From: a virus
IMG/VR virus record: IMGVR_UViG_3300023174_008937
Coordinates: 1-29,205 of that record
Length of the DNA stretch: 29,205 nucleotides
Reading direction: 5' to 3' (one strand)
The notes under the pieces: generated by a model
The model's input: only the letters and a program-made list of their open reading frames with translations
Database searches by the model: none
What the model was told of the DNA's origin: nothing
Part shown: piece after piece, positions 1,988-20,098 of the stretch
How the letters are laid out: every line of letters starts with the position of its first letter
Numbering within the stretch: position 1 is the stretch's first letter
Translations under genes and position numbers: made by a program

Positions 1988-3274
1988 TTAATACCTATAT
2001 GTTTCCAACTTGTAAGGCCCAGTAACAGACACATTGATGTAGGCGGCCTGTGCAGCAGTGAGTTCAGTCAACTCAGCGCCAATCTGACCCAGATGCAGTC
2101 TGGCTACTTTTTCATCCAGATGCTTGGGCAGCAGGTACAACTGTCCTGATTGATATTTTTCAGGATTACCAAACAATTCAATCTGTGCCAGAACCTGATT
2201 GGTAAAACTGTTGGACATGACATAACTGGGGTGACCGGTGGCACAGCCCAGATTGACCAGGCGGCCACGGGCTAGGATAATGATCTTTCGACCACTGCTC
2301 ATGGTCACATGATCCACTTGCGGTTTGATTTCGTCCCACACACAATCACTTAGACCAGCAACGTCAATTTCGCTATCAAAGTGTCCAATGTTACAGACAA
2401 TGGCGTTGTGCTTCATGTGTTCCATGTGTTCACGAGTAATAACATTGATGTTGCCAGTGGCAGTGACGAAGATGTCTGCTTTGTCGGCTGCGTAATCCAT
2501 GGTCACCACTTTGTAGCCTTCCATGGCCGCTTGCAGTGCGCAGATCGGGTCGATCTCGGTGACCCACACCTGTGCCGACAGCGCACGCAAGGCCTGTGCT
2601 GAACCCTTGCCGACATCGCCATAGCCCGCCACTACCGCGACCTTGCCAGCGATCATGACGTCGGTGGCACGCTTGATGCCGTCGACCAGGCTCTCACGGC
2701 AGCCGTAGAGGTTGTCGAACTTGCTCTTGGTCACGGAATCGTTGACGTTGATGGCTGGTATTTTCAGTGTGCCTGCAGCAATACGTTCCAGTAGCTTGTG
2801 AATGCCGGTGGTGGTTTCTTCAGTGACCCCAATGATGCCTGCTAAAAGATCTGGATGGTGATCATGGACATATCCGGTCAAATCATGCCCATCGTCTAGC
2901 AGCATGTTGGGTGTCCAGCCATCAGGCCCGCGCAAGGTCTGCTGGATGCACCACCAGTATTCTTCTTCAGTCTCGCCCTTCCAAGCAAACACCGGTATAC
3001 CTAGATCTGCCAGTGCGGCTGCAGCATGGTCCTGAGTGGAAAAAATGTTACAGCTGGACCAACGCACACTTGCACCCAGAGCCACCAAGGTCTTAACTAA
3101 CACCGCAGTTTGCACTGTCATGTGCAAACTGCCAGCAATTCTAGCTCCCCGCAGTGGTTGTGCTGTCCGATATTCTTCCAAAACTGTCATGAGTCCTGGC
3201 ATTTCTGTTTCTGCAATGGCAATTTCCTTGTGGCCCCATGCAGCAAGACCAATGTCTCGAACTTTATAATCCAT
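1988..3274 (-). CDS. ahcY: adenosylhomocysteinase (S-adenosylhomocysteine hydrolase)
   Basis: A full-length 428-residue SAH hydrolase, which splits S-adenosylhomocysteine into adenosine and homocysteine using bound NAD. The family landmarks are intact: an N-terminal [16 protein letters not shown] segment, the active-site stretch [18 protein letters not shown] (about residues 177-194) containing the conserved K, D, N and C, the Rossmann motif [13 protein letters not shown] (about 215-227), [12 protein letters not shown], and the C-terminal YKLETYRY, equivalent to the usual KPDHYRY lid. The ATG overlaps the stop of the small upstream gene (TAATG). The middle (about 2560-2740) is visibly more GC-rich than the neighbouring AT-rich phage DNA, which suggests relatively recent capture from a bacterium. 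I see no inactivating change. Confidence 0.97.
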
Positions 3275-3557: not shown

Positions 3558-4145
3558 TTATAACTTGTCTTTTACTAATTCAGGATAATCTTTGTACAGG
3601 TCTTCCATGTTATATCCGTGTTTGTCTAAAAAAGCAATTGAAAAAAAACTTCTGGTTGCTTCTATATTTTCAACACTGTGACATCTCCAGACATCATAAG
3701 CATACCAGGTATCTAATTTTAGACGATGCCTGTTTATTTCCTGAACGTCTTGATATCTTAGATTCTGTGCAACTTCCCCAGCAACACTGGTCTTATCATA
3801 AAAAACGGTGTCCACTGATTCGCCGCCAAGTTCTAAATAATAATTGACGGCCAATGCTCGACCACGGTCTATGTGGGGTGGCTGACAGGCCGGGGCAGAT
3901 CCACTATTTTTCATGATGCCAATTACCAAACATATTTTCCTGTTGGGGAAAAATTTTTGATACTCGATGCAAAGTTTGTCATCCAAAAACTCCGCACGGT
4001 CAAATATATGTAGTGTTGAGTTAATACCATTATGAAATTCATCCAACCAACGTTTACGATCTGGATCCAAATCTATACCATCTATACGTGTCTGTATTTG
4101 AGATTTTAGTTCCGCCGAAGGCGGTGGTAATTGTAAAACTAACAT
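3558..4145 (-). CDS. 2OG-Fe(II) oxygenase-like phage protein
   Basis: A 195-residue protein with a plausible double-stranded beta-helix iron site: H-x-D in QPPHIDRGRALAVNYYLELG (about residues 88-107) and a distal histidine and arginine in CHSVENIEATRSFFSIAF (about 155-172). Small 2-oxoglutarate-dependent-oxygenase-like proteins of this layout are common in T4-like marine and freshwater phages, mostly with unknown substrates. Two other proteins in this window (4343-5011 and 7823-8437) share the layout. The gene lies between tRNA-Gly and tRNA-Leu. The motifs are seen; the family is inferred from them; the substrate is unknown. Confidence 0.6.
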   Translation of the reverse strand: MLVLQLPPPSAELKSQIQTRIDGIDLDPDRKRWLDEFHNGINSTLHIFDRAEFLDDKLCIEYQKFFPNRKICLVIGIMKNSGSAPACQPPHIDRGRALAVNYYLELGGESVDTVFYDKTSVAGEVAQNLRYQDVQEINRHRLKLDTWYAYDVWRCHSVENIEATRSFFSIAFLDKHGYNMEDLYKDYPELVKDKL

Positions 4146-4181
4146 GTCAACTCACTGTATTTTTGAAAATATACTTGATCC

Positions 4182-4265
4182 TGGTGGGCGGGGAGAGACT
4201 CGAACTCTCACGCCTCGCGGCACTGGCTTCTAAGACCAGCGTGGCTACCATTACACCACCCGCCC
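4182..4265 (-). tRNA. tRNA-Leu (anticodon UAG), CCA encoded
   Basis: A class II tRNA with acceptor GGGCGGG/CCCGCCC, anticodon loop CTTAGAA (TAG), a long variable arm and T-loop TTCGAGT. Encoded CCA. Confidence 0.95.
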
Positions 4266-4342
4266 GTTGTTTTTTATATATCCCCAAATGATAGTTTATT
4301 GTTAGACTTATGGATATTTATTGAGGAAATAATTTACAAATT

Positions 4343-5011
4343 TTAATGCCTTGGATTCCTCATATGCTTCTTTTTTAATTCTTCAAAGGGTGCGCAGGGA
4401 AGAAATCTTAGACTGAGTGTTACTCTAATGCTATTTGAAAAATTAACTGCTGTGTGCAATTTGTTGATATTAAAAATTACAGGGTCTGTCATAATAAAAC
4501 TTGCAACTTCTTTTACGTCCGACAATTCTGCCACATGATAATAGGCACCCTGGTGTGTCTGCAGAAGATAAGTGACTCGTTCGGGGCACAGTTCATAAAA
4601 ATAACTGACACTGTTTTCGCAATTGTGCAACGGCAAAAGAATTGTGTCTCTTTTTACAGTGGGGTGTTTAAGAATCTCGTATTCTTCACACAATGTCTGG
4701 GCCTTTTGATTAAAGTCCTCAGGGGTCCATTTGTGATCAAAATTATAGTCCATGTGAATGGGAATGGCTTTGTACGGCCCAGTGGTAATAATTGGCCCAG
4801 GTTGCCAATATTCATAAAGACCTAGATCTTTTACCATTTTGACCAACGTTGGAGACGTTGACAATTCTTTGACCGTAAACATGGTAAAGGAATCTTCTCG
4901 AGTTATGCCTGCTCCGGTTGGAATCTTGCTCTTATAGATTTCTACAAGTTCACCATATATATTTTCACAATCAATTGTGCTAATTGGTATGTAATAATCA
5001 TCTAGGTTCAT
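4343..5011 (-). CDS. 2OG-Fe(II) oxygenase-like phage protein
   Basis: A 222-residue protein starting MNLDDYYIPISTID. The open frame extends further upstream with a hydrophobic leader-like stretch. I chose this ATG because a late-promoter box (CATAAATA) lies exactly 5 nt before it, which would leave the upstream codons untranscribed. The putative iron site is IPIHMDYNF (H-x-D, about residues 82-90) and the distal KLHTAVNFSNSIRVTLSLRF (H...R, about 185-205). The C-terminal 'H-A-V-N...R-x-(T/L)-(L/V)-S-x-R-F' stretch is shared with 7823-8437 (HAVINPTDKVRFLVSTRF), so these two are likely paralogues. Substrate unknown. Confidence 0.58.
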   Translation of the reverse strand: MNLDDYYIPISTIDCENIYGELVEIYKSKIPTGAGITREDSFTMFTVKELSTSPTLVKMVKDLGLYEYWQPGPIITTGPYKAIPIHMDYNFDHKWTPEDFNQKAQTLCEEYEILKHPTVKRDTILLPLHNCENSVSYFYELCPERVTYLLQTHQGAYYHVAELSDVKEVASFIMTDPVIFNINKLHTAVNFSNSIRVTLSLRFLPCAPFEELKKKHMRNPRH

Positions 5012-5024: not shown

Positions 5025-5082
5025 GAAACGCCTATAACCAAAATAATTAGCAACAACAATAGATAATAATTGCCAAACTATC

Positions 5083-5090
5083 GATAAATA
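5083..5090 (+). promoter_or_regulatory. late-promoter box GATAAATA
   Basis: GATAAATA lies 20 nt upstream of the ATG at 5111. The leader in between carries the Shine-Dalgarno-like GGGGG at 5101-5105. This is a conventional late promoter plus RBS. Confidence 0.6.
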
Positions 5091-5110
5091 CTTGTGTACT
5101 GGGGGCCGTT

Positions 5111-5605
5111 ATGAAAAAATTGTTTTTTTTCTTGAGCTTACTGGCCCCAGTGGCCTGTATGGCGGCGGATATCAATAAAACACCGCTGCCACCCATACTG
5201 TATCAGAATCTAATCGAACGTCTGATACCTGAAGTCACTGAAATAACCCGACTGCCTGTGCCCGATGAAAAACCCCAGGTGTTTGTGGCCGACAGAAATC
5301 AGATTGAGCAAGCCTACTGCCGAGATCAACGACACGATTGTCATGTGGCGGCCATCACTGACGACAAAACTGGTGAAATCATACTCAGCCCCGCACTGTT
5401 ACAATTGAATGTGTTCACAGCCAGTGTGGTGTTCCATGAACTGGTGCACTGGGCTCAGGTTAAAAACGGCATGTTCACTGATGAGCCCGACTGTATACAC
5501 TGGGCCAAAAGTGAAATGCATGCCTACACTGCACAGAGTAGATTTTTAGAAAAACAAGCGGGTCGAGGATTTCCAGTACCTGACTTGCTGGCACAGTGCA
5601 GATAG
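5111..5605 (+). CDS. secreted HExxH putative metallopeptidase
   Basis: A 164-residue protein with a Sec-type signal peptide (MKKLFFFLSLLAPVACMAA, likely cleaved after MAA or slightly earlier). The mature part carries VVFHELVHWAQ (about residues 107-117), an HExxH zinc motif. Downstream acidic residues in DEPDCIHWAKSEMHAYTAQ may supply a third ligand (gluzincin-like E). Four cysteines (YCRDQRHDC, DC, QC) could form disulfides, in keeping with the periplasm. It resembles short secreted HExxH proteins of unknown function. A second protein of the same design is at 11046-11549. It is one of the few plus-strand genes and has its own late promoter and RBS. Proteolysis itself is an inference. Confidence 0.65.
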   Translation: MKKLFFFLSLLAPVACMAADINKTPLPPILYQNLIERLIPEVTEITRLPVPDEKPQVFVADRNQIEQAYCRDQRHDCHVAAITDDKTGEIILSPALLQLNVFTASVVFHELVHWAQVKNGMFTDEPDCIHWAKSEMHAYTAQSRFLEKQAGRGFPVPDLLAQCR

Positions 5606-5611
5606 TCTGGT

Positions 5612-6085
5612 TTAAAATCCAATAACTGTCTTGAGCCGATCAGCAGCACAACTGGCAGCAAATGCTCGAGGTTTGATGAATGGCACCACATTGCACATGC
5701 CTTTGATGTAGCCCACTGCTTCGTTGATCACACAGTTGGATGCATACATCTCATCAGGGTTGATATCCAGGTGCACTTCAAATTCACGATCTTCCAGAAC
5801 TTCGTGTAGTTTCAGGTACAATTCTGCAACCTTGTAGACTTCGGTCATCAGACGCATTCTAGGCCGATCGCGGTTCTGATCATAATCGCGTTCACGATGC
5901 ACTTCACCAAAAATCTTGCAGCCGTGGCGGCCGTCAATATGCACCACAATGGCCAGGGTATAATCAGCCCACCATTGTTCTTTCAAACGAAATCTTTCAC
6001 TATCACCGCCGATGTAGATCCGGGTGTTGGGTCCTTGAGCAAGGATGAATTCTCTTACTTCGTCGATGTCGATTTTTTTAAACAT
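5612..6085 (-). CDS. YkuK-like RNase H-fold protein
   Basis: A 157-residue protein starting MFKKIDIDEVREFI; a TTG two codons earlier is less likely. The pattern IYIGGDSERFR (about residues 24-34), a long strand pair ending KIFGEVHRERDYD, RMRLMTEVYKVAELYLKL, then VHLDINPDEMYASNCVINEAVGYI and KPRAFAASCAADR matches the YkuK/DUF458 family, described as RNase H-like. The acidic residues in GGDSE and HLDIN would be the metal ligands. Phage homologues occur in T4-like genomes; the function is not established. Upstream, GTTAAATA lies 7 nt before the ATG, another late-box-like sequence. Its stop faces the convergent HExxH gene 6 nt away. Confidence 0.72.
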   Translation of the reverse strand: MFKKIDIDEVREFILAQGPNTRIYIGGDSERFRLKEQWWADYTLAIVVHIDGRHGCKIFGEVHRERDYDQNRDRPRMRLMTEVYKVAELYLKLHEVLEDREFEVHLDINPDEMYASNCVINEAVGYIKGMCNVVPFIKPRAFAASCAADRLKTVIGF

Positions 6086-6126
6086 GCTCAAGTATTTAAC
6101 AAACTAACGTTACAGGATTATTAAAC

Positions 6127-6160
6127 TGGCCTGCCCAGAGGGATTCGAACCCTGGGCTAC
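6127..6160 (-). pseudogene. 3' half of a split tRNA (probably tRNA-Arg): T-arm, acceptor, CCA
   Basis: The minus strand shows a T-arm (CAGGG, loop TTCGAAT, CCCTC), then TGGGCAG, discriminator G and CCA. The acceptor strand is exactly complementary over 7 bp to CTGCCCA at 7055-7061, which begins a matching tRNA 5' half. The anticodon arm is missing here: the sequence directly upstream is the end of the endonuclease ORF, whose TAG stop (6157-6159) abuts the variable loop. Confidence 0.7.
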
Positions 6161-6900
6161 AACCTAAATTCTTTACATTTTTCCAACGTATCTATTATAA
6201 CAATATTTTTATATTGTTTCAATAAACAATTCAATTTTTTTTGCTGGACCTTTATTGCTTGTGGGTTTTTGGGATCCAGAAATAAATCGTGTTCAGTTAA
6301 ATAAAAGTCTGGAAAATAGTTGTGATACACACCCGCGTCATCCACCCAAGATATTGGGTCTGGTCTTATCCAAGCTATTTTTAGTTCATCCAGCCGTTTT
6401 GCTAATTCTAATTCCCAACTAGAATCCAACATAATTCCATTATATTCAACTATGCCTTTTCTCAATCTTCTATGAGGAGAAGCCAATGCTTTTTCTCTTA
6501 GATGCCGTTTTGTTTCTTCAGTATGGGGCTTGCCCTTGCCTCCGGTCATTCCTTTTTTTGGATGCACGGGAATTTCTTTACCTTCAATCTTTGCTTTGGT
6601 ATACTGATTAGTAATGCCGGTCCTCTTTCGTGCTTCATTCATTGCTTGAACTGCACTCAAAGACCCATTTTTATTTCCATAATCCGATCTCTTTGGATTT
6701 TTAATACACCAGCGAGAGTGATTAGCTATTTGACTAGTATCCCAAAGACCAAATTCTAAGTCGCAATATTTACAATTTTTGAGCTTTGCATGCGGCCTAT
6801 ATGAGCCATCGCAAGATGCATAGTGTTTTTTGTAATTGCCACCTTTGGCAGAGAATTCATAATTGCATTTATCACATGTTATTTTAGTTTTTGTTTTCAT
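6157..6900 (-). CDS. free-standing homing-type endonuclease with zinc-finger N-terminus
   Basis: A 247-residue protein starting MKTKTKITCDKCNYEF. The frame runs upstream into the tRNA-Arg gene, so this ATG, preceded by GGGTAAC, is preferred. Residues 8-75 carry two Cys/His clusters (CDKC...H...C and CKYC...H...C), likely DNA-binding zinc knuckles. A central KGKPHTEETKRHLREKA helix is NUMOD-like. The C-terminal domain has LDSSWELELAKRLDEL, then HNYFPDFYL and DLFLDPKNP with a following Q and K, a PD-(D/E)XK/Vsr-like nuclease arrangement seen in phage homing endonucleases. It lies between two tRNA halves and just downstream of tRNA-Arg, so it probably moved in as a mobile gene. The cleavage target is unknown. 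Confidence 0.72.
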   Translation of the reverse strand: MKTKTKITCDKCNYEFSAKGGNYKKHYASCDGSYRPHAKLKNCKYCDLEFGLWDTSQIANHSRWCIKNPKRSDYGNKNGSLSAVQAMNEARKRTGITNQYTKAKIEGKEIPVHPKKGMTGGKGKPHTEETKRHLREKALASPHRRLRKGIVEYNGIMLDSSWELELAKRLDELKIAWIRPDPISWVDDAGVYHNYFPDFYLTEHDLFLDPKNPQAIKVQQKKLNCLLKQYKNIVIIDTLEKCKEFRL

Positions 6901-6921
6901 AATAGTTACCCATATGTTAGG

Positions 6922-6996
6922 TGGCGCGCCTGCCTGGATTCGAACCAGGAATGAGGGTTTAGAAGACCCTAGTGATATCCCTTTCACCACAGACGC
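6922..6996 (-). tRNA. tRNA-Arg (anticodon UCU), CCA encoded
   Basis: Acceptor GCGTCTG pairs with CAGGCGC (one G-U), the anticodon loop is CTTCTAA (TCT), the T-loop TTCGAAT, discriminator G, CCA encoded. It sits inside the interval separating the two halves of another tRNA, with its own late-promoter box upstream. Confidence 0.93.
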
Positions 6997-7006
6997 ATAA
7001 TACTAT

Positions 7007-7014
7007 TATTTATA
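7007..7014 (-). promoter_or_regulatory. consensus late-promoter box TATAAATA upstream of tRNA-Arg
   Basis: TATAAATA on the minus strand, 10 nt before the first base of tRNA-Arg(UCU). Transcription would start a few bases before the tRNA and continue into the endonuclease gene. Confidence 0.6.
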
Positions 7015-7024
7015 CAACTATAAA

Positions 7025-7061
7025 CTAAAACCAATGCTCTATCCAGCTGAGCTATGGGCAG
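7025..7061 (-). pseudogene. 5' half of a split tRNA (probably tRNA-Arg): acceptor, D-arm, start of anticodon arm
   Basis: The minus strand reads acceptor CTGCCCA, TA, D-stem GCTC, loop AGCTGGATA, GAGC, A, then TTGGT and TTTAG. After this the tRNA pattern stops; no ACCAA follows to close the anticodon stem. The D-loop AGCTGGATA and the G discriminator of the partner half are typical of tRNA-Arg. The partner 3' half lies at 6127-6160. Confidence 0.7.
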
Positions 7062-7123
7062 GTAACAAAATAATTATAGTATGGTTTGGGGAGGATGTCA
7101 ATGACTTTGGAATGACGAGAATT

Positions 7124-7199
7124 TGGTGGAGGTGACAGGACTTGAACCCGCTACCTTGACCTTGCAAAGGTCCTGCTCTACCAGATGAGCTACACCCCC
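7124..7199 (-). tRNA. tRNA-Ala (anticodon UGC), CCA encoded
   Basis: Acceptor GGGGGTG/CACCTCC, D-arm GCTC...GAGC, anticodon loop TTTGCAA (TGC), T-loop TTCAAGT. The first pair of the anticodon stem (27-43) is a G-A mismatch; otherwise the fold is sound. Confidence 0.92.
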
Positions 7200-7233
7200 C
7201 AGAGACTGTTTGATAACAATCTTGACAAACTTA

Positions 7234-7307
7234 TGGTGCCCCCACACAGAATCGAACTGCGAATTGAAGATTACAAATCTACCGTTATACCATTTAACTA
7301 TGGGGGC
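7234..7307 (-). tRNA. tRNA-Thr (anticodon UGU), CCA encoded
   Basis: Acceptor GCCCCCA/TGGGGGC, anticodon loop TTTGTAA (TGT), T-loop TTCGATT, discriminator A and encoded CCA. Confidence 0.94.
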
Positions 7308-7329
7308 AAAAACTGTTTGGCGTTAAACT

Positions 7330-7707
7330 TTACACCGACTTCTTTGCACGTGGTTTACGTGCAGGTTTTTCTACAACTGCCACTGTGACCTGTTCTGCCA
7401 ATGGGGCAGCTTTGGGTTGACGTGGCTTACGTGTTTTTTTGACTTCCGGGACCACTTCTACTGCAACTGTTTCTGTCACTGGAGTTTCAGGCACCGCCGC
7501 TTCTGTGGTCTTGGCACGTGACTTCTTGGCGACAACTTTGGCAATTCCCTGTTCCACCATGGCGATAGCAGCCCTAACTTCCAGTACGAGCTTGTCCCAG
7601 TGCGTGACAAATTCAATACGACCGTCTGAATAATCAGTGCGTGTACTGTGGTTGCCTTGTGTTACCTGAGGTTTAGTTTGTTTGGTGGAACGTTTAGTTG
7701 TCTTCAT
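7330..7707 (-). CDS. basic protein with Lys/Pro/Ala-rich tail
   Basis: A 125-residue protein. The N-terminus is basic and polar (MKTTKRSTKQTKPQVTQ). Residues 28-65 (IEFVTHWDKLVLEVRAAIAMVEQGIAKV) form a plausible small helical core. The last 60 residues are low complexity with repeated K-P-R/K-x-R-K clusters (KKTRKPRQPKAAP, EKPARKPRAKKSV), like the tails of bacterial histone-H1-like proteins. A role in binding or packing DNA is a guess from composition only. A consensus TATAAATA lies exactly 5 nt before the ATG. The gene sits between tRNA-Asn and tRNA-Thr. Confidence 0.6.
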   Translation of the reverse strand: MKTTKRSTKQTKPQVTQGNHSTRTDYSDGRIEFVTHWDKLVLEVRAAIAMVEQGIAKVVAKKSRAKTTEAAVPETPVTETVAVEVVPEVKKTRKPRQPKAAPLAEQVTVAVVEKPARKPRAKKSV

Positions 7708-7712
7708 AAAAA

Positions 7713-7720
7713 TATTTATA
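7713..7720 (-). promoter_or_regulatory. consensus late-promoter box TATAAATA, 5 nt before ATG
   Basis: TATAAATA, TTTTT, then the ATG at 7707 on the minus strand. No Shine-Dalgarno sequence fits between them, consistent with a leaderless late mRNA. Confidence 0.65.
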
Positions 7721-7745
7721 CTCGAAATACAATACTACTATTTTT

Positions 7746-7821
7746 TGGCTCCCCGACCTGGGCTCGAACCAGGGACACACGGATTAACAGTCCGTTGCTC
7801 TACCGACTGAGCTATCGGGGA
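7746..7821 (-). tRNA. tRNA-Asn (anticodon GUU), CCA encoded
   Basis: Acceptor TCCCCGA/TCGGGGA, D-arm GCTC/GAGC, anticodon loop CTGTTAA (GTT), T-loop TTCGAGC, discriminator G. Confidence 0.95.
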
Positions 7822-7822
7822 A

Positions 7823-8437
7823 TTAAATTTGTATATATGGTTGTTTGATACCCAATCTCAATAAATCTGCTTCATCTAATTCTGGATTAAATCTGGTGCT
7901 TACTAAAAATCTTACTTTATCAGTGGGATTTATCACTGCATGAGGCAATGTAACATTAATTATCATTGGTTTAGTTGCAGTGACTCGACAACGCTCTTTG
8001 GCGGATTTAGCATCACACATCACAGAAGTATTTAGTGTTTTATCTACATGCCCCCATAAATTTCCCCAGATGGATCCCAATATCTTTGCATCATACCAAA
8101 CGGTATATGTATTTTCGTAGTTCTCGATGGGTATATTCAATGCCTGACTACGAAAAGATGCGTCAATGGAATCAATATGCGGAGGATAACTTTGATTTGG
8201 GGGCACAAGAGCAAATGCTGTTGCATGCCATCGATGGTAAAGATCCATGTCCTTTAAAAACTGCACAAAAACGGGTACTTGCTCTTGGAATTGCTCTTTC
8301 TTTTTGGGAGTAAAGACAATTTCTCGTTGATTGAAAGTTTTGGCAAATTTAACGAATTCTTCTTGAATATCTTTTAGATTTTCTATTTGAAATTCACTAT
8401 AAAACCAATTTTCATTAAAAGGTTTATAAATTGACAT
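7823..8437 (-). CDS. 2OG-Fe(II) oxygenase-like phage protein
   Basis: A 204-residue protein with the motif SYPPHIDSID (H-x-D, about residues 83-92) and a C-terminal TLPHAVINPTDKVRFLVSTRF (distal H and R, about 163-183), the iron and 2-oxoglutarate site of the dioxygenase-like fold. The C-terminal block closely matches the protein at 4343-5011. The 3' end lies 1 nt from tRNA-Asn. The structured non-coding stretch at 8489-8740 lies immediately upstream, so it may be part of this gene's leader if transcription reads through from tRNA-Lys. Substrate unknown. Confidence 0.6.
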   Translation of the reverse strand: MSIYKPFNENWFYSEFQIENLKDIQEEFVKFAKTFNQREIVFTPKKKEQFQEQVPVFVQFLKDMDLYHRWHATAFALVPPNQSYPPHIDSIDASFRSQALNIPIENYENTYTVWYDAKILGSIWGNLWGHVDKTLNTSVMCDAKSAKERCRVTATKPMIINVTLPHAVINPTDKVRFLVSTRFNPELDEADLLRLGIKQPYIQI

Positions 8438-13873: not shown

Positions 13874-15067
13874 TTAAATTTCGCCAAATACATCAATAAA
13901 TGAAGTTTGCCGAATTTCATCCATCAAATTGATGTGATTCTTAAATTTTGTATGTTCTTCCAAATTATAGTTGTAATTTTCCAAAATACCCGTGGCATAG
14001 TTTATCCACTCTCGGACTGTTACGTTATTCTTGTAGATTTTCTGGTATGCCTGTACCTCAGTTAAAAATTTCTGATGTAGTTTGGGAGGCAAACTGTTGA
14101 TGGTCAAGTGAGTGGGATGCGTCAATCTAATTAAAACCAAATGCAGATTTTGTTCTATGCAGTAATCGAGGACCGGCAAGAAGGTTTTGTAACTGGTACA
14201 CTGAAAAACATGATTAATGCTAAACGATTCTAGATTTTTAAGAGTTTTGAGTTTCTTAATATTTAGGTCAACATCTGACCAACTGCAGCCATATCTGACA
14301 TATTCTGCGTGTTCGCCTGTGCCATCCAAACTCACATTCAATTGAATTGATTTAAATTTGGATAATAATTCAAAAACGTCATCTTTGATGACACTGGCAT
14401 TGGTTATTACATTTAACGCCACTCTACTAGGATCGGGAATACTGTTCAAAAACTTAATTGCTTGCGGGGTAATTAACGGTTCGCCGCCGTACAACTGTAT
14501 TCGATCTAAATTGCTAATTAGTTCTGGCTTCAATTGTTCAAACTCTTGGGTTTGATACCATTTTCTTTCTGAATTTCTAAGAGTCAGCAATTCCAAAGCA
14601 GCAAATTTTTCTTTATGTTGTTTTTCTTCTGTCTCGTGACTGGAAGAATACATGGAATTACATTGAATACATTTTAAATTACAGTAGTTGCCAAACTGCA
14701 CTGACAAATATCTGACATCATCTAACTTGTTGGGATCAAATTCTTTGGCAATATAATCCTTGTATTGCCTATTATACTCTAATCTCAATGAACCATGCCA
14801 CTTACTGACGGACTCCCGTTCCCAACAAACATTGCAGCGGTCGTGTTTAATTCCGCCCATCAACTCATTTTTTAAAGGAGATAATACATTTTCTCGCCAA
14901 TTTTTAAAATTTCTGAAATTATGCAAGGGAAATTCGTTGGGAAGTCTCCGCATCTCTTCATCTACTTTATACATACAGCAAGGTTGCAGTGTGCCATCAA
15001 TGGTAATTTCGGCTGCAATAAATGGTGCTGCACAAAAAGTATCAGGATGTTTTATTTGATCGGACAT
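13874..15067 (-). CDS. radical SAM protein (twitch/SPASM-like)
   Basis: A 397-residue protein starting MSDQIKHPDTFCAAPF. This ATG is chosen over an upstream TTG because a late-like box lies 5 nt before it. The radical SAM cluster motif is CNLKCIQC (C-x3-C-x2-C, about residues 128-135). Extra cysteines upstream (FC, PCC, CNVCW) and the N-terminal 'FC.aPf....i...G...pCC' pattern match twitch-type radical SAM proteins found in T4-like cyanophages. LYGGEPLITP is the SAM-binding GGE motif. The protein should carry one 4Fe-4S cluster, perhaps a second. Substrate unknown; phage relatives are uncharacterised. Confidence 0.85.
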   Translation of the reverse strand: MSDQIKHPDTFCAAPFIAAEITIDGTLQPCCMYKVDEEMRRLPNEFPLHNFRNFKNWRENVLSPLKNELMGGIKHDRCNVCWERESVSKWHGSLRLEYNRQYKDYIAKEFDPNKLDDVRYLSVQFGNYCNLKCIQCNSMYSSSHETEEKQHKEKFAALELLTLRNSERKWYQTQEFEQLKPELISNLDRIQLYGGEPLITPQAIKFLNSIPDPSRVALNVITNASVIKDDVFELLSKFKSIQLNVSLDGTGEHAEYVRYGCSWSDVDLNIKKLKTLKNLESFSINHVFQCTSYKTFLPVLDYCIEQNLHLVLIRLTHPTHLTINSLPPKLHQKFLTEVQAYQKIYKNNVTVREWINYATGILENYNYNLEEHTKFKNHINLMDEIRQTSFIDVFGEI

Positions 15068-15072
15068 GTCAA

Positions 15073-15080
15073 TATTTACG
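15073..15080 (-). promoter_or_regulatory. late-promoter-like box CGTAAATA, 5 nt before ATG
   Basis: CGTAAATA, TTGAC, then the ATG at 15067. It differs from TATAAATA at the first two positions but keeps the 5-nt spacing seen at four other genes. Confidence 0.45.
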
Positions 15081-15121
15081 CTCAAAAAAGATTTGAATTT
15101 TATTTCAATTTTAATTCATAA

Positions 15122-15981: not shown

Positions 15982-17589
15982 TTATGTTGGAGACCAAAAC
16001 ATACTACATTGTTGTGATTTCCAGTCAAGATATTTACGCATTGCTGTAGTAGTAGATTTATTGCCGGTTACCTCTAAAGTATTATCAATAAATTTTTGTT
16101 TGGATAAAAAATACTCAAATTGAATTTTATGTAAAAGTTTTTCTTTGGTTTCCTTATCAAATTTAATCTTAATTAAATCGGTTAATTCTAAATTAAACTT
16201 TTTAGCTTTGGCTAGAAATCCCGGAACATCAAAAGGTGAAAGATGTGCTCCTAGATGTCCTAGATGATTAAAATAATTTTTAAATTTAAGCGAATATTCT
16301 GCTGCCTGCGCTTGCGTTACACCCATTTGATTGGTCCACATATAATAATGTAATTTTTGATCTTCTAATTTGTATTGATATTTTGTAAAATTTGATAAAT
16401 TTCCGCTATGAAGATACAACGGTTTAAAGGAATTAGAAGTTATGACATCTTTGATATCCGGTCTGTGCAGGAATTCGAAAAGCTCATTGAAATAGTCGAT
16501 GGTATCATATGGGAGCCCCAAAATCCACTGGGCACAAATAAACATCTCATTGTTGGTTAATTCAGATATAGAATGCAGTGCTTCGATGGTCCTAGTTTTA
16601 CCCAATCCTTTTCCTACTGCACTGCCACTTTTGTCATTGATTGTTTCAATTCCCAAATCCCACGCTACAAATCCTGCATCTTTAAGGGATTTAATCATCC
16701 ATGGCCATTTCCAAAACAAATCCAATCTAGCATAAGATGCTATTTTTACTTTAAATGGTAAACTTTCTAGCACATCTACGATAAAATTGACTTTATCTTC
16801 GCTATCATTTATGATTTCATCAGTGCACCAATAATGACTAATATTGTGTTCTTCATAATTTCTTATTAGCTCGGAACGTATAATTTCTTTAGTTCTGGTG
16901 TAGTCTCCGGCTTTTTTTCCTAGTAATTTATAGGTGCAATAGCCACATTTAAAAATGCAACCTCGTGCAATTTCTATACCTATACTTTCATGTTCAGACA
17001 GTTCGTCAAATTTCGACCATTTAATTGAATTTGACGAAAAATTTTCAAAAGGATATAATGAGTCTGAAATTACAGTTGTTTTATATTTACTACTCAATAA
17101 AATATCTTTTTTAAGATTTGTAGAGTTTTGTGTTTCGTAATCTAATATATTCTTAAGAATTTCTTCGCCTTGGCCAATAGTGACGTAGTCAAATTTTTCT
17201 AAAATTCCATTACGATTTATGGAATCTAGATACTCTGGCACAATCGACCCGCCTCCAAGTATTAACTTAACATGGGGCGCAAAATTTTTTATATATTCCA
17301 AACGTTGCCTAAATTGTTCTTCGCTTAACCCAAAAAATTCTATCCCGTTTGTGGTCCCAGTTGATTCGGATCGAGGTAAAACAGTGGATGAAAAACCAAC
17401 AAGAAGTGTGTGGTTTTTTATAACTGTTTCTACAATTTTAGTAAATTCATCATCTGTTTGAAACAAAAAATAATTGATTACTCTGGTTTCATAAGAAAGA
17501 TCAGTCAGATAACTGGCCAACACATTTGCACCAATGGGACGTTCGCTACATTGATTGGCAATATCAGTAAAAATTATAACAGCAGACAT
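15982..17589 (-). CDS. B12-binding-domain radical SAM protein
   Basis: A 535-residue protein. Residues 1-160 look like a cobalamin-binding-type Rossmann domain (GANVLASYLTDLSYETRVINY, LVGFSSTVL, VKLILGGGSIVPEY, DYVTIGQGEE). The radical SAM motif is ARGCIFKCGYCTY (C-x3-C-x2-C, about residues 213-225), followed by the TIM-barrel region (YARLDLFWKWPWM, WDLGIETIND, WILGLPYDTIDYF). This architecture is that of B12-binding radical SAM methylases and related enzymes. The usual DxHxxG cobalamin motif is not evident, so B12 binding is uncertain. Similar proteins occur in T4-like marine phages without assigned substrates. A consensus late promoter lies exactly 5 nt before the ATG. Confidence 0.85.
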   Translation of the reverse strand: MSAVIIFTDIANQCSERPIGANVLASYLTDLSYETRVINYFLFQTDDEFTKIVETVIKNHTLLVGFSSTVLPRSESTGTTNGIEFFGLSEEQFRQRLEYIKNFAPHVKLILGGGSIVPEYLDSINRNGILEKFDYVTIGQGEEILKNILDYETQNSTNLKKDILLSSKYKTTVISDSLYPFENFSSNSIKWSKFDELSEHESIGIEIARGCIFKCGYCTYKLLGKKAGDYTRTKEIIRSELIRNYEEHNISHYWCTDEIINDSEDKVNFIVDVLESLPFKVKIASYARLDLFWKWPWMIKSLKDAGFVAWDLGIETINDKSGSAVGKGLGKTRTIEALHSISELTNNEMFICAQWILGLPYDTIDYFNELFEFLHRPDIKDVITSNSFKPLYLHSGNLSNFTKYQYKLEDQKLHYYMWTNQMGVTQAQAAEYSLKFKNYFNHLGHLGAHLSPFDVPGFLAKAKKFNLELTDLIKIKFDKETKEKLLHKIQFEYFLSKQKFIDNTLEVTGNKSTTTAMRKYLDWKSQQCSMFWSPT

Positions 17590-18328: not shown

Positions 18329-19138
18329 TTAAGCCAGTCCAGTCAATCTTTTTTCGTATTCATCAACCTGATACACCAATTCCTCATAGGTCATACTTGA
18401 TACTTTGTGTTTTTTAGCATTGTCACTGTTCAGTAGCAACTCACAATTAAGAGGATGTTTTATGTAATAGGGATCGTAATTATTTCTAATAGCATCTGCC
18501 ACACTAACCTTGTGATCTCTTACAACTCCATTAATATTGTTCTTACCTCTACTACGCATACCATACGTTTTTAACAAAGTAAAATCAAACAAATCTGGAT
18601 AATCTGACAATTTAAAAGTAAACCAATAATTGGCTCTACCATTATGGCTGTAATTGTTGCTGTGTTCTGCACAAAACTTTTTGTAAAATCTTAAAATAGT
18701 TTCTTTTCCACAAATTTTGCATTTGCATCGGTAAACCGCAGAGTATGGCCCAACAATATTTTTGTTTAATTTTTGTTTTTCATATTTTGTAAGATTACTT
18801 GATTTAACAGGACCATACTTTCTCTTGCCTACCAATTTTAGATTGTTGTGAGTTGCCGAACACGAATGGCTGCAAAATTTATTTTGTCTATTTTCGTAGG
18901 ACATCGCCGCAGAACACTGAAGACAGTGTTTGGGTGCGGTCAGATATTTTTCTACATTTTTTCTTTTAGTATTTGTTCCAAATTCTTTACCAAAAACTCC
19001 ACCTTTGTCTCCACTTTCTTTCCACTTTTGTTTGCCATCGACAGTATGGCTCGCAATATAATGTGTATGGATCCCTTTTACAGATAGAGTTTTCTTACAG
19101 TAAACACAACTAACTTGTATAGATGTATATTGATTCAT
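18329..19138 (-). CDS. HNH homing endonuclease next to tRNA-Ile(CAU)
   Basis: A 269-residue protein starting MNQYTSIQVSCVYCKKTLSV. This ATG is chosen because TATAAATA lies exactly 5 nt before it; the frame continues into the tRNA. Several Cys clusters (CVYC...H, CLQC...C...H, CKCKIC...C) suggest zinc-binding DNA-contact modules. The C-terminal region VVRDHKVSVADAIRNNYDPY followed by HPLNCELLLNSDNAKKHK is an HNH nuclease motif (DH...N...N..K). It begins 15 nt after the CCA of the intron-bearing tRNA-Ile(CAU). The intron itself has no ORF, so this free-standing enzyme may mobilise the intron or the tRNA region in trans; that is an inference. Confidence 0.8.
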   Translation of the reverse strand: MNQYTSIQVSCVYCKKTLSVKGIHTHYIASHTVDGKQKWKESGDKGGVFGKEFGTNTKRKNVEKYLTAPKHCLQCSAAMSYENRQNKFCSHSCSATHNNLKLVGKRKYGPVKSSNLTKYEKQKLNKNIVGPYSAVYRCKCKICGKETILRFYKKFCAEHSNNYSHNGRANYWFTFKLSDYPDLFDFTLLKTYGMRSRGKNNINGVVRDHKVSVADAIRNNYDPYYIKHPLNCELLLNSDNAKKHKVSSMTYEELVYQVDEYEKRLTGLA

Positions 19139-19153: not shown

Positions 19154-19431
19154 TGGTGCGCCCACCTGGACTCGAACCAGGAACCAACGGATTCAAGTTT
19201 GTGTGACTTTCGCCACTCCTTGGACTATGCCTTCACCATTGCTTGCGCTTTAGGTGGGTGCCGTCTAGTCTCTACACCTTCAACAGTGTTTCCACTGAAG
19301 CTTGGCTCGGCATTGCCATATGCTTTCGCACTTAGGTTTCACCGAATTTGACACCATCCCTTATGCAGTTTCCACGCATAAGGCACTCTTTTGAATGAGT
19401 CCGCTGCTCTAACCAATTGAGCTATGGGCGC
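19154..19431 (-). tRNA. tRNA-Ile2 (anticodon CAU) interrupted by a group I intron
   Basis: The exons are 19395-19431 (acceptor GCGCCCA, D-arm, anticodon arm up to CAT) and 19154-19193 (AATCCG, T-loop TTCGAGT, acceptor TGGGCGC, discriminator A, CCA). Joined, they give a 77-nt tRNA with the anticodon loop CTCATAA, as in bacterial tRNA-Ile2. The neighbouring tilS gene (gap 19 nt) supports isoleucine rather than methionine identity. The intron lies directly after the anticodon (position 36). Confidence 0.92.
19194..19394 (-). ncRNA. group I intron in tRNA-Ile(CAU), Azoarcus type, 201 nt
   Basis: The core motifs are GGCAATGCCGAGCCAAGC (19300-19317), GGTGTAGAGACTAGAC (19263-19278) and AAGGCATAGTCC (19222-19233), with terminal omega-G at 19194. 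The 5' exon ends CAU and the intron has a GUG guide shortly downstream (in GAGTGCC), the CAU/GUG pairing known from the 205-nt Azoarcus tRNA-Ile(CAU) intron. From memory, much of the remaining sequence (GGATGGTGTCAAATTCGG, GAGTGGCGAAAGTCACACAA) is also nearly the same as Azoarcus. It has no ORF. Confidence 0.93.
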
Positions 19432-19450
19432 AAAACCTTCCACTGCTTAA

Positions 19451-20098
19451 CTACTCAACAAAACAATTGTAATTGATCTCAGTCTGATTGTCAACAGATT
19501 CTAGAAACTTTTTCTCTACAATTCTGCGCACAACTTTGTGAATGCCCGGGTTGACTTCCAAAATTCTGGGCATGACATCGTGTCTGACCCTGTTACGAGT
19601 GTATTTGGTGTCCCAGTTACTGGTATCGTCGTGCCAACTGACCTGATGCCGCTGACACCATGACACTAATTCTGCTTTGGTGTTAAGCAAAAATGGTCTG
19701 ATTGTCCGATGTCGACGATGGGGGATTACTTTGGCAGTGCCGTGGCACATGCTCCAGATGTAGGTTTCTACACAGTCATCCAGATGATGCGCAGTCACTA
19801 CCGTCTGTCCCAAACGATCAAATTCCGCATAGCGTTGTTCACGCCAAAACTCTTCTGGACTTTGTTCCGCTGCCTTTTTTCGATGGTCGATGTTGGTCAC
19901 AAACATGGCGATGTCATGTTGATTGCAGTACTCAGCCACAACTTGTTGACCCGCAGTGCTGTTTTCGGTGCCGTGATGAACAAACACTGCTGTGACCTCG
20001 TGTCGTCGACGCAAGAAGTCCAGCGCAGCCATGCTGTCTGCGCCGCCGCTGCAGGCCACAAATACGTTGTCTGGAACTCTGCCTAGCAATTTAATCAT
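19451..20098 (-). CDS. tilS: minimal tRNA(Ile)-lysidine synthetase
   Basis: A 215-residue protein with the N-type ATP-pyrophosphatase P-loop VACSGGADSMAALDFL (about residues 14-29), FVHHGTENSTAG, FWREQRYAEF, TAHHLDDCVETYIW (about 101-114), RPFLLNTKAELVSWCQ, and DDTSNWDTKYTRNRVRHDVM (about 157-176). These are the catalytic-domain signatures of TilS, which attaches lysine to C34 of tRNA-Ile(CAU) so that it reads AUA and is charged with isoleucine. It consists of the catalytic domain only; E. coli TilS has about 430 residues with extra C-terminal domains. It ends 19 nt upstream of the tRNA-Ile(CAU) gene in the same orientation, so enzyme and substrate tRNA are probably co-transcribed. Confidence 0.93.
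   Translation of the reverse strand: MIKLLGRVPDNVFVACSGGADSMAALDFLRRRHEVTAVFVHHGTENSTAGQQVVAEYCNQHDIAMFVTNIDHRKKAAEQSPEEFWREQRYAEFDRLGQTVVTAHHLDDCVETYIWSMCHGTAKVIPHRRHRTIRPFLLNTKAELVSWCQRHQVSWHDDTSNWDTKYTRNRVRHDVMPRILEVNPGIHKVVRRIVEKKFLESVDNQTEINYNCFVE

Follow-up and report, generated by a model that had tools for sequence, protein, structure and literature searches.

A mobile endonuclease unit in phage tRNA-Arg(UCU) genes carries a differently written tRNA-Arg(UCU)

Introduction

Free-standing homing endonucleases are described in a 2026 preprint (PMC13405050) as generally confined to intergenic sites, sparing host genes, in contrast to the endonucleases of introns and inteins. In fungal mitochondria, LAGLIDADG or GIY-YIG endonuclease ORFs lie inside protein genes and replace the C-termini that they displace, at 3' ends only, sometimes leaving the old part behind; examples are Allomyces atp6 and Glomus atp6, atp9, cox2 and nad3 (PMC3630166). 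In the tRNA clusters of phages T4 and T6, the free-standing GIY-YIG endonuclease SegB favours the inheritance or amplification of tRNA genes. Its target is listed in a review as a tRNA intergenic region (PMC2988022), and another report has it drive tRNA-Tyr amplification from a site between tRNAs, in a tRNA neighbourhood with no isotype preference reported (PMC13096335). Two further phage systems are comparable. The endonuclease genes of HEG-islands mobilise neighbouring useful cargo genes, two or more endonucleases flanking essential operons with no discrete boundaries (PMC10448857). In the collaborative homing of F-CphI, a free DHHRN endonuclease is paired with another element, the intron in psbA, which shields the target from cutting (PMC6083498).

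The locus analysed here lies in a stretch of viral DNA of 29,205 nucleotides (positions 1 to 29,205 of IMG/VR record IMGVR_UViG_3300023174_008937; hereafter the window). Like the fungal ORFs, it has a free endonuclease ORF inside a gene, bringing a replacement of what was displaced, but the cassette brings a whole tRNA gene, resides in phages and has a PD-(D/E)XK enzyme. It shares with SegB its place in a phage tRNA cluster, but is inserted inside tRNA-Arg(UCU) and comes with a UCU replacement. Unlike HEG-islands, it has definable ends and comprises a single endonuclease plus a single tRNA, lodged within a broken tRNA; whereas an intron gives protection in the F-CphI system, the second element here is a replacement gene. 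Fractured genes with Vsr-like (EDxHD) endonucleases, reportedly described by Dassa in 2009, are said to have their halves joined by split inteins. They likewise have an endonuclease gene between the halves of one gene, and perhaps a similar nuclease fold, but the cassette contains nothing to join the halves, and a replacement takes the place of the broken gene. SegB itself was reportedly the subject of a 2008 study by Brok-Volchanskaya. Synthetic cleave-and-rescue and home-and-rescue drives cut a resident gene and carry a recoded copy of it; they differ in being engineered CRISPR systems in insects. Among the titles and abstract openings of the open-licence PMC literature we found no report of an endonuclease cassette with a replacement tRNA. 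What is new here is a phage endonuclease that is tied to a single tRNA isoacceptor and carries a whole substitute gene.

Results

The interrupted tRNA gene of the window

The locus occupies positions 6127-7061 and is read on the minus strand throughout. Two pieces of a tRNA frame it, with acceptor strands CTGCCCA (7061-7055) and TGGGCAG (6137-6131) that are exact complements. The resident tRNA-Arg(UCU) has left a 5' remnant (7034-7061) with the acceptor 5' strand (7055-7061) and the D-arm, as far as base 27. The 3' remnant (6127-6152) contains most of the T-arm, the acceptor 3' strand (6131-6137), the discriminator G at 6130 and CCA at 6129-6127. Both remnants equal the uninterrupted gene of a related contig, L003. 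Between them, junction comparison delimits an inserted unit of 881 bp (6153-7033) that replaces 23 bp of L003.

The unit starts with a left edge unlike L003 (7022-7033), which is what remains of the loop and 5' strand of a foreign anticodon arm (TGGTTTTAGTTT) and is similar to cassette left edges elsewhere, for example in L019 and L033. It continues with TATAAATA (7007-7014), a T4-type late promoter motif. An intact replacement tRNA-Arg(UCU) follows (6922-6996; ARAGORN; Rfam 56.9 bits), and then a gene for a predicted homing endonuclease of 247 aa (6157-6900; PHROGs, T7 endonuclease I profile match and model fold). The replacement tRNA is the sole tRNA-Arg among the 14 tRNAs that ARAGORN finds in the window. 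Of the 314 Arg codons in 21 window genes, 90 are AGA, more than any other.

Most of this layout had been recognised in an initial annotation made from the letters alone: the complementary acceptor strands with their D-arm and T-arm, and the late promoter, intact tRNA and endonuclease ORF between the halves. It had also placed the endonuclease stop codon in contact with the 3' half. The TAG is indeed near, at variable-loop positions, but four bases away from the stretch that matches L003. Its statement that the interval holds no group I core agrees with Rfam, which at the gathering score gives no match to a group I intron, and no group I catalytic core for the insert, within 6127-7061.

Empty alleles and insertion junctions

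A pattern made from both window tRNA halves matched four viral contigs, among them L003, which is syntenic with the window and has an uninterrupted tRNA-Arg(TCT) at the same place. In BLAST alignments, window 5041-6152 is 95.6% identical to L003 3310-4420, and window 7034-7830 is 86.2% identical to L003 4444-5230. The 23 bp displaced in the window are the anticodon arm and adjacent bases. Gone are the entire anticodon loop, the 3' anticodon strand and the variable loop, while the 5' anticodon strand of the window is insert-derived except for one base. The broken tRNA had been thought to lack only its anticodon 3' side, which understates the loss; the view that it is Arg-like is supported by its uninterrupted counterpart, a tRNA-Arg(UCU). 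L003 is the kind of related phage sequence that had been sought, and it fixes the insertion ends at 6153-7033.

A second pattern scan identified L099 as the empty partner of L019. Here 755 bp stand in place of 16 bp (ACGGACTTCTAATCCG), all of the 17-nt anticodon stem-loop but its last base, a T common to both contigs. There is 1 mismatch in 1866 positions upstream of the insert and 15 in 2000 downstream, with zero in the first 1244. The TAG of the L019 endonuclease spans the end of the anticodon strand and the variable loop. In both pairs the unit entered the resident tRNA-Arg, which lost its anticodon arm.

The third pair involves a distant relative of the endonuclease, with Acinetobacter phage AM101 (L018) occupied and MD-2021a (L100) empty. 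In AM101, 666 bp have been inserted cleanly into a tRNA-CAU at its anticodon loop, between flanks 99% identical; the insertion point adjoins or falls inside the anticodon, and two bases are common at the joint. The tRNA-CAU of AM101 (L018 2429-3171) is split with both halves intact, in a region annotated only as an endonuclease. In AM101 and HEMP5 (L017), the endonuclease stop is the TAA of an anticodon loop. ARAGORN finds no other CAU tRNA across 60-100 kb of the AM101 genome, and this insertion lacking a replacement tRNA, in the distant subfamily, counts against the replacement model set out below.

All three pairs are presence/absence alleles with otherwise matching flanks, the pattern looked for in homing endonucleases. 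A scan aimed at L029 gave no empty allele. Since excision would be unable to recreate the missing anticodon arm, the empty tRNA-Arg state is most simply taken as ancestral. L003 and L099 contradict the two outcomes named in advance as fatal to an insertion, namely that the halves belong to unrelated tRNAs or that the intact gene never existed.

The endonuclease

The window protein has two zinc-finger-like Cys/His clusters, a linker and a C-terminal PD-(D/E)XK nuclease domain, with predicted active-site residues E163, P197-D198 and D209-x-K211. Across 54 aligned rows, P197, D198 and K211 are invariant and D209 and E163 are kept at 90% or more, and the PD...(D/E)xK signature lies on the corresponding fold. 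Members have in common a CxxC...H...C cluster and the motif W-E...H-x-Y-F-P-D-F...(D/E)-x-K. The PHROGs match of the window protein is to endonuclease/resolvase, and the family profile matches T7 endonuclease I in the PDB (3cae, E=0.0029). Domain matches among the 54 members are to NUMOD3 in 13 and to Phage_endo_I in 6, the window protein itself having neither.

The AlphaFold model (pLDDT 88.2, pTM 0.52) was compared with known folds mainly over residues ~132/137-247, that is, the C-terminal part. The match to TnsA is modest (Z 8.3; 108 residues, 3.2 Å), and those to the homing endonuclease I-Bth0305I (Z 6.9; 79 residues, 3.0 Å) and to Vsr (Z 6.5; 84 residues, 2.7 Å) are below it; Z values near 8 may mean a common arrangement only, and a fold is no proof of function. 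The C-terminal domain of the model is restriction-enzyme-like. With the whole model, Foldseek gave nothing at E 0.001 or better. The dN/dS ratio is 0.07-0.29 in eight of nine pairs, the remaining pair being saturated, and the endonuclease is under purifying selection.

Recurrence across viral contigs

A search of viral contigs with the window protein gave six loci. With an alignment of nine members as the query, we took the best 80 of 131 relatives. After removal of duplicates, the survey comprised 60 non-identical loci, including 6 of the 58 phage records that the protein search matched. L014 and L096 were excluded because the motif was not found in them, and eight loci were passed over because they repeated contigs already included.

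A UCU anticodon arm adjoins the endonuclease in 46 of the 60 loci, compared with 11 of 953 windows drawn at random from these loci. Five of the 14 remaining loci have, by eye, a UCU loop that the test missed (L037, L063, L067, L068 and L080), and L094 and L097 have tRNA-Arg(tct) on the opposite strand; within the test distance there is no UCU arm in L012, L013, L015, L016, L018, L047 and L093. ARAGORN alone places an intact tRNA-Arg(tct) immediately upstream of the endonuclease in 30/60 loci and immediately downstream in 3/60. tRNA-Arg(UCU) has been chosen repeatedly. TATAAATA is found upstream of the endonuclease in 32 of the 60 loci and in 85 of 2131 control windows. Among the seven T4 free-standing endonuclease genes covered by one review, dedicated promoters are middle or late (PMC2988022).

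The motif scan detects a 5' tRNA half in 29 loci and none in 31. The 29 include L068, where a tRNA-Arg carrying ~50 nt of extra sequence gave the hit, and the loci L015, L016 and L018 of the tRNA-CAU/T4 type; they omit L087, caught by another scan, and the partial half of L017, seen by eye. Nine loci, including the tRNA-CAU case L018, have both halves, and of their 63 acceptor-strand positions 60 are paired. Shuffled half partners give a mean of 40.7 and a maximum of 58, and 0 of 20000 shuffles reach 60. L041 and L080 were left out of this test as false or intact-tRNA halves (3 and 4 of 7). The halves of L030 have 4 of 7 acceptor pairs left.

We considered a chimeric assembly and rejected it, because the layout recurs in many contigs. 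A pattern scan of bacterial genome contigs returned 231 stretches and zero confirmed relatives. The L019 unit, used as a DNA query against phage records, gave one weak match, to Aeromonas phage phiWae14.

Joint movement of tRNA and endonuclease

Pairs of related units in different surroundings indicate that the tRNA and the endonuclease have moved together. Background identity has a mean of 45% and a maximum of 47% (20 pairs). L072 and L075 share 99% of their endonuclease DNA and 97% of their tRNA region; their upstream flanks are no more alike than background (47%), their downstream flanks reach 70%, and the broken tRNAs differ in their acceptors, GGCCTCG and GGTCACA. L029 and L030 agree at 86% in the endonuclease and 90% in the tRNA; both flanks are at background, and the acceptors are GCGACTG and GGACACG. 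For L037 and L063, the values are 92% and 93%, again with both flanks at background.

Over longer times, sequence comparison suggests that the two are not always kept together. The endonuclease DNA of L034 is 73-76% like that of L029, L030, L033 and L039, yet the tRNA region is 40-49% identical, at or near background; the tRNA therefore appears to be exchangeable on this scale. Near-identical left edges (ACTTARTTTATATAAATA) stand behind different resident tRNAs in L019, L020 and L033, which would fit crossovers within the conserved D-arm.

Cassette tRNAs and their targets

The insert tRNA and the tRNA of the empty allele L003 are the same isoacceptor, UCU, with different gene sequences. By the measure applied to the fungal mitochondrial ORFs, the insert thus carries an equivalent of the disrupted gene, at the level of the isoacceptor. 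The 46 anticodon loops are CTTCTAA in 29, CTTCTAC in 16 and TTTCTAC in 1.

From the 60 loci and their duplicates we selected 16 cassette-bearing records, 20-382 kb long, and searched them for a narrow target-type pattern, GAGCA-N5-CTTCTAA. It occurs in two of them, each time in the tRNA adjoining the endonuclease. An unbroken target-type tRNA-Arg beside the endonuclease, in L055 and L098, counts against the model of a destroyed and substituted gene set out below. The converse scan gave at least 119 loci, 1-14 kb long, with an intact target-type tRNA-Arg(UCU). Among the 119 loci listed, L147 and L201 have endonuclease relatives at E 1e-6 or better, with best matches to L016 and L017, distant tRNA-CAU/T4-type members. 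A third match, in L177, has E 2e-4 over 28 residues, with a query ORF that includes translated tRNA.

A C31-G39 pair is present in 3 of 33 cassette tRNAs and in 24 of 38 targets, counted as distinct arms (Fisher p 2e-6), in sequences that are related and with a target set picked by pattern. Both known tRNA-Arg recipients have A31-T39, outside the majority type. The scarcity of C31-G39 is therefore no proof of immunity, and we dropped the closing-pair difference as a sign of it.

Thirteen cassette tRNA-Arg(UCU) genes are odd in form. Their acceptor, anticodon and T arms are present, the D-arm is absent from its usual place and a D-loop-like segment lies 3' of the anticodon arm. They are L036 1889-1972, L052 1893-1976, L065 1897-1980, L033 1895-1979, L039 1886-1970, L063 1859-1938, L080 2547-2625, L037 1957-2035, L064 1901-1980, L007 2894-2976, L072 1900-1982, L076 1901-1983 and L083 2475-2557. 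ARAGORN detects one of the 13, without a full anticodon, and Rfam at gathering score matches six at 29.2-35.5 bits over roughly their own span; an additional match in L052 (29.4) is longer than the tRNA. In a shuffle test, a helix around the anticodon arm scores 0.009 in L036, 0.0135 in L052, 0.084 in L065 and 0.24-0.93 in the other ten. We treat this enclosing helix as a lead only, because its shuffle support is confined to L036 and L052.

Discussion

We favour, with a probability of roughly 0.75, the reading that these units are homing-endonuclease cassettes, carried by tailed phages, that destroy resident tRNA-Arg(UCU) genes and supply a differently written substitute. The endonuclease would cut the resident gene in its anticodon stem-loop, and repair from a cassette-bearing genome would install the cassette, destroying the resident tRNA gene. 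The cassette's own tRNA-Arg(UCU), differently written, is presumably left uncut by the enzyme. An AGA-reading tRNA would be useful to the phage, and hence the cassette would carry a substitute; since the cassette tRNA would supply the function, the recipient would retain AGA decoding yet now depend on the cassette. The leftover D- and T-arms would probably serve as homology arms in the next transfer. We infer cleavage, immunity and rescue along these lines, and likewise the timing of expression. A mobile unit in a tRNA-Arg with a replacement tRNA-Arg had been one of two hypotheses of the initial annotation, and two occupied/empty pairs, the recurrence of the layout and units in different surroundings speak for it. 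So do the tRNA-CAU pair, the purifying selection on the endonuclease, the frequency of AGA in the window genes and the rarity with which an intact target-type tRNA-Arg(UCU) and the endonuclease occur together (2 of 16 cassette-bearing records; 2 of the 119 target-type loci listed). Against it stand the unbroken tRNAs of L055 and L098, the 31 loci in which the motif scan detects no 5' half, the apparently exchanged tRNA region of L034 and the AM101 insertion with no replacement in 60-100 kb.

Its other hypothesis was a truly split tRNA, with both halves transcribed, joined in trans and functional. The pairing of the acceptor strands in several loci agrees with this, but we regard it as highly improbable, because the two pieces retain neither an anticodon nor strands that could form a matching arm for it: the loop and the 3' strand are absent, and a full arm cannot be rebuilt from them. 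An intact isoacceptor also lies between the halves, the interval has no group I match, L030 is down to 4 of 7 acceptor pairs and the motif scan detects no 5' half in 31 of the 60 loci; other loci have a single half or diverging halves. Descent from a tRNA-Arg group I intron with an endonuclease, whose ribozyme disappeared and was superseded by a nearby tRNA, would concern the origin of the cassette rather than its present action. The group I intron that the window does contain also sits in an anticodon loop, of a tRNA-CAU, and L067 has by eye a tRNA-Arg with an apparent group I intron beside the endonuclease; against this, the window interval has no intron match and the replacement tRNA is a distinct gene rather than a repaired version of the old one, and we think such an origin unlikely.

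Alternatively, the unit might owe its spread to a tRNA-Arg(UCU) that withstands host anticodon nucleases or other tRNA-cutting defences, the endonuclease being mainly a vehicle. SegB-driven tRNA-Tyr amplification overcomes Septu (PMC13096335), and several cassette tRNAs are structurally odd. Yet the anticodon loop itself is conserved (CTTCTAA or CTTCTAC in 45 of 46), and both checkable tRNA-Arg recipients lost the same isoacceptor, whereas mere addition of a tRNA needs no loss; this explanation seems to us rather unlikely. Destruction of the resident gene with supply of a substitute would apparently make the system resemble a natural 'cut and rescue' gene drive. A bolder form of this reading, which we put forward tentatively and consider possible rather than probable, is a family of natural cleave-and-rescue drives that imposes dependence on its phage hosts through loss of the resident tRNA-Arg(UCU), with rescue tRNAs rewritten to evade the enzyme, some of them beyond the normal cloverleaf; the odd form in question is the D-loop-like segment after the anticodon arm, with a helix around that arm.

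The cassette family contrasts with the confinement to intergenic sites described in PMC13405050, in that it breaks a gene inside the anticodon arm and brings a substitute. It would provide a natural, testable model for cut-and-rescue drives. It may also help to explain the swapping of tRNA-Arg(UCU) genes among phages, and adds a further candidate mechanism for change in phage tRNA clusters.

Additional observations

At window 19154-19432 (minus strand) there is a tRNA with anticodon CAU and a group I intron directly after the anticodon (Rfam 19201-19406). It is followed by an ORF of PHROG 23051 (18329-19138), and just upstream of it lies a PP-loop ATPase gene (Pfam ATP_bind_3, 19451-20098), whose product is presumably TilS-like. 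Such an enzyme would be in keeping with a tRNA-Ile2(CAU) identity for the intron-bearing tRNA. The window also encodes an S-adenosylhomocysteine hydrolase and two radical SAM proteins (1988-3274, 13874-15085 and 15982-17589, all on the minus strand).

Upstream of the endonuclease, the tRNA-Arg(UCU) genes of L067 and L068 have, by eye, an apparent group I intron and an insert of ~50 nt, respectively, in the anticodon loop. In L007, a second ORF (3733-4404), with a GIY-YIG-like motif, lies directly 3' of the endonuclease, its end overlapping a tRNA-Leu. In the Acinetobacter phages, the adjacent tRNA is annotated as tRNA-Pyl (L018 2345-2419, L100 946-1020 and L101 946-1020), with anticodon CUA in L018 and L100, and is possibly an amber-reading tRNA.
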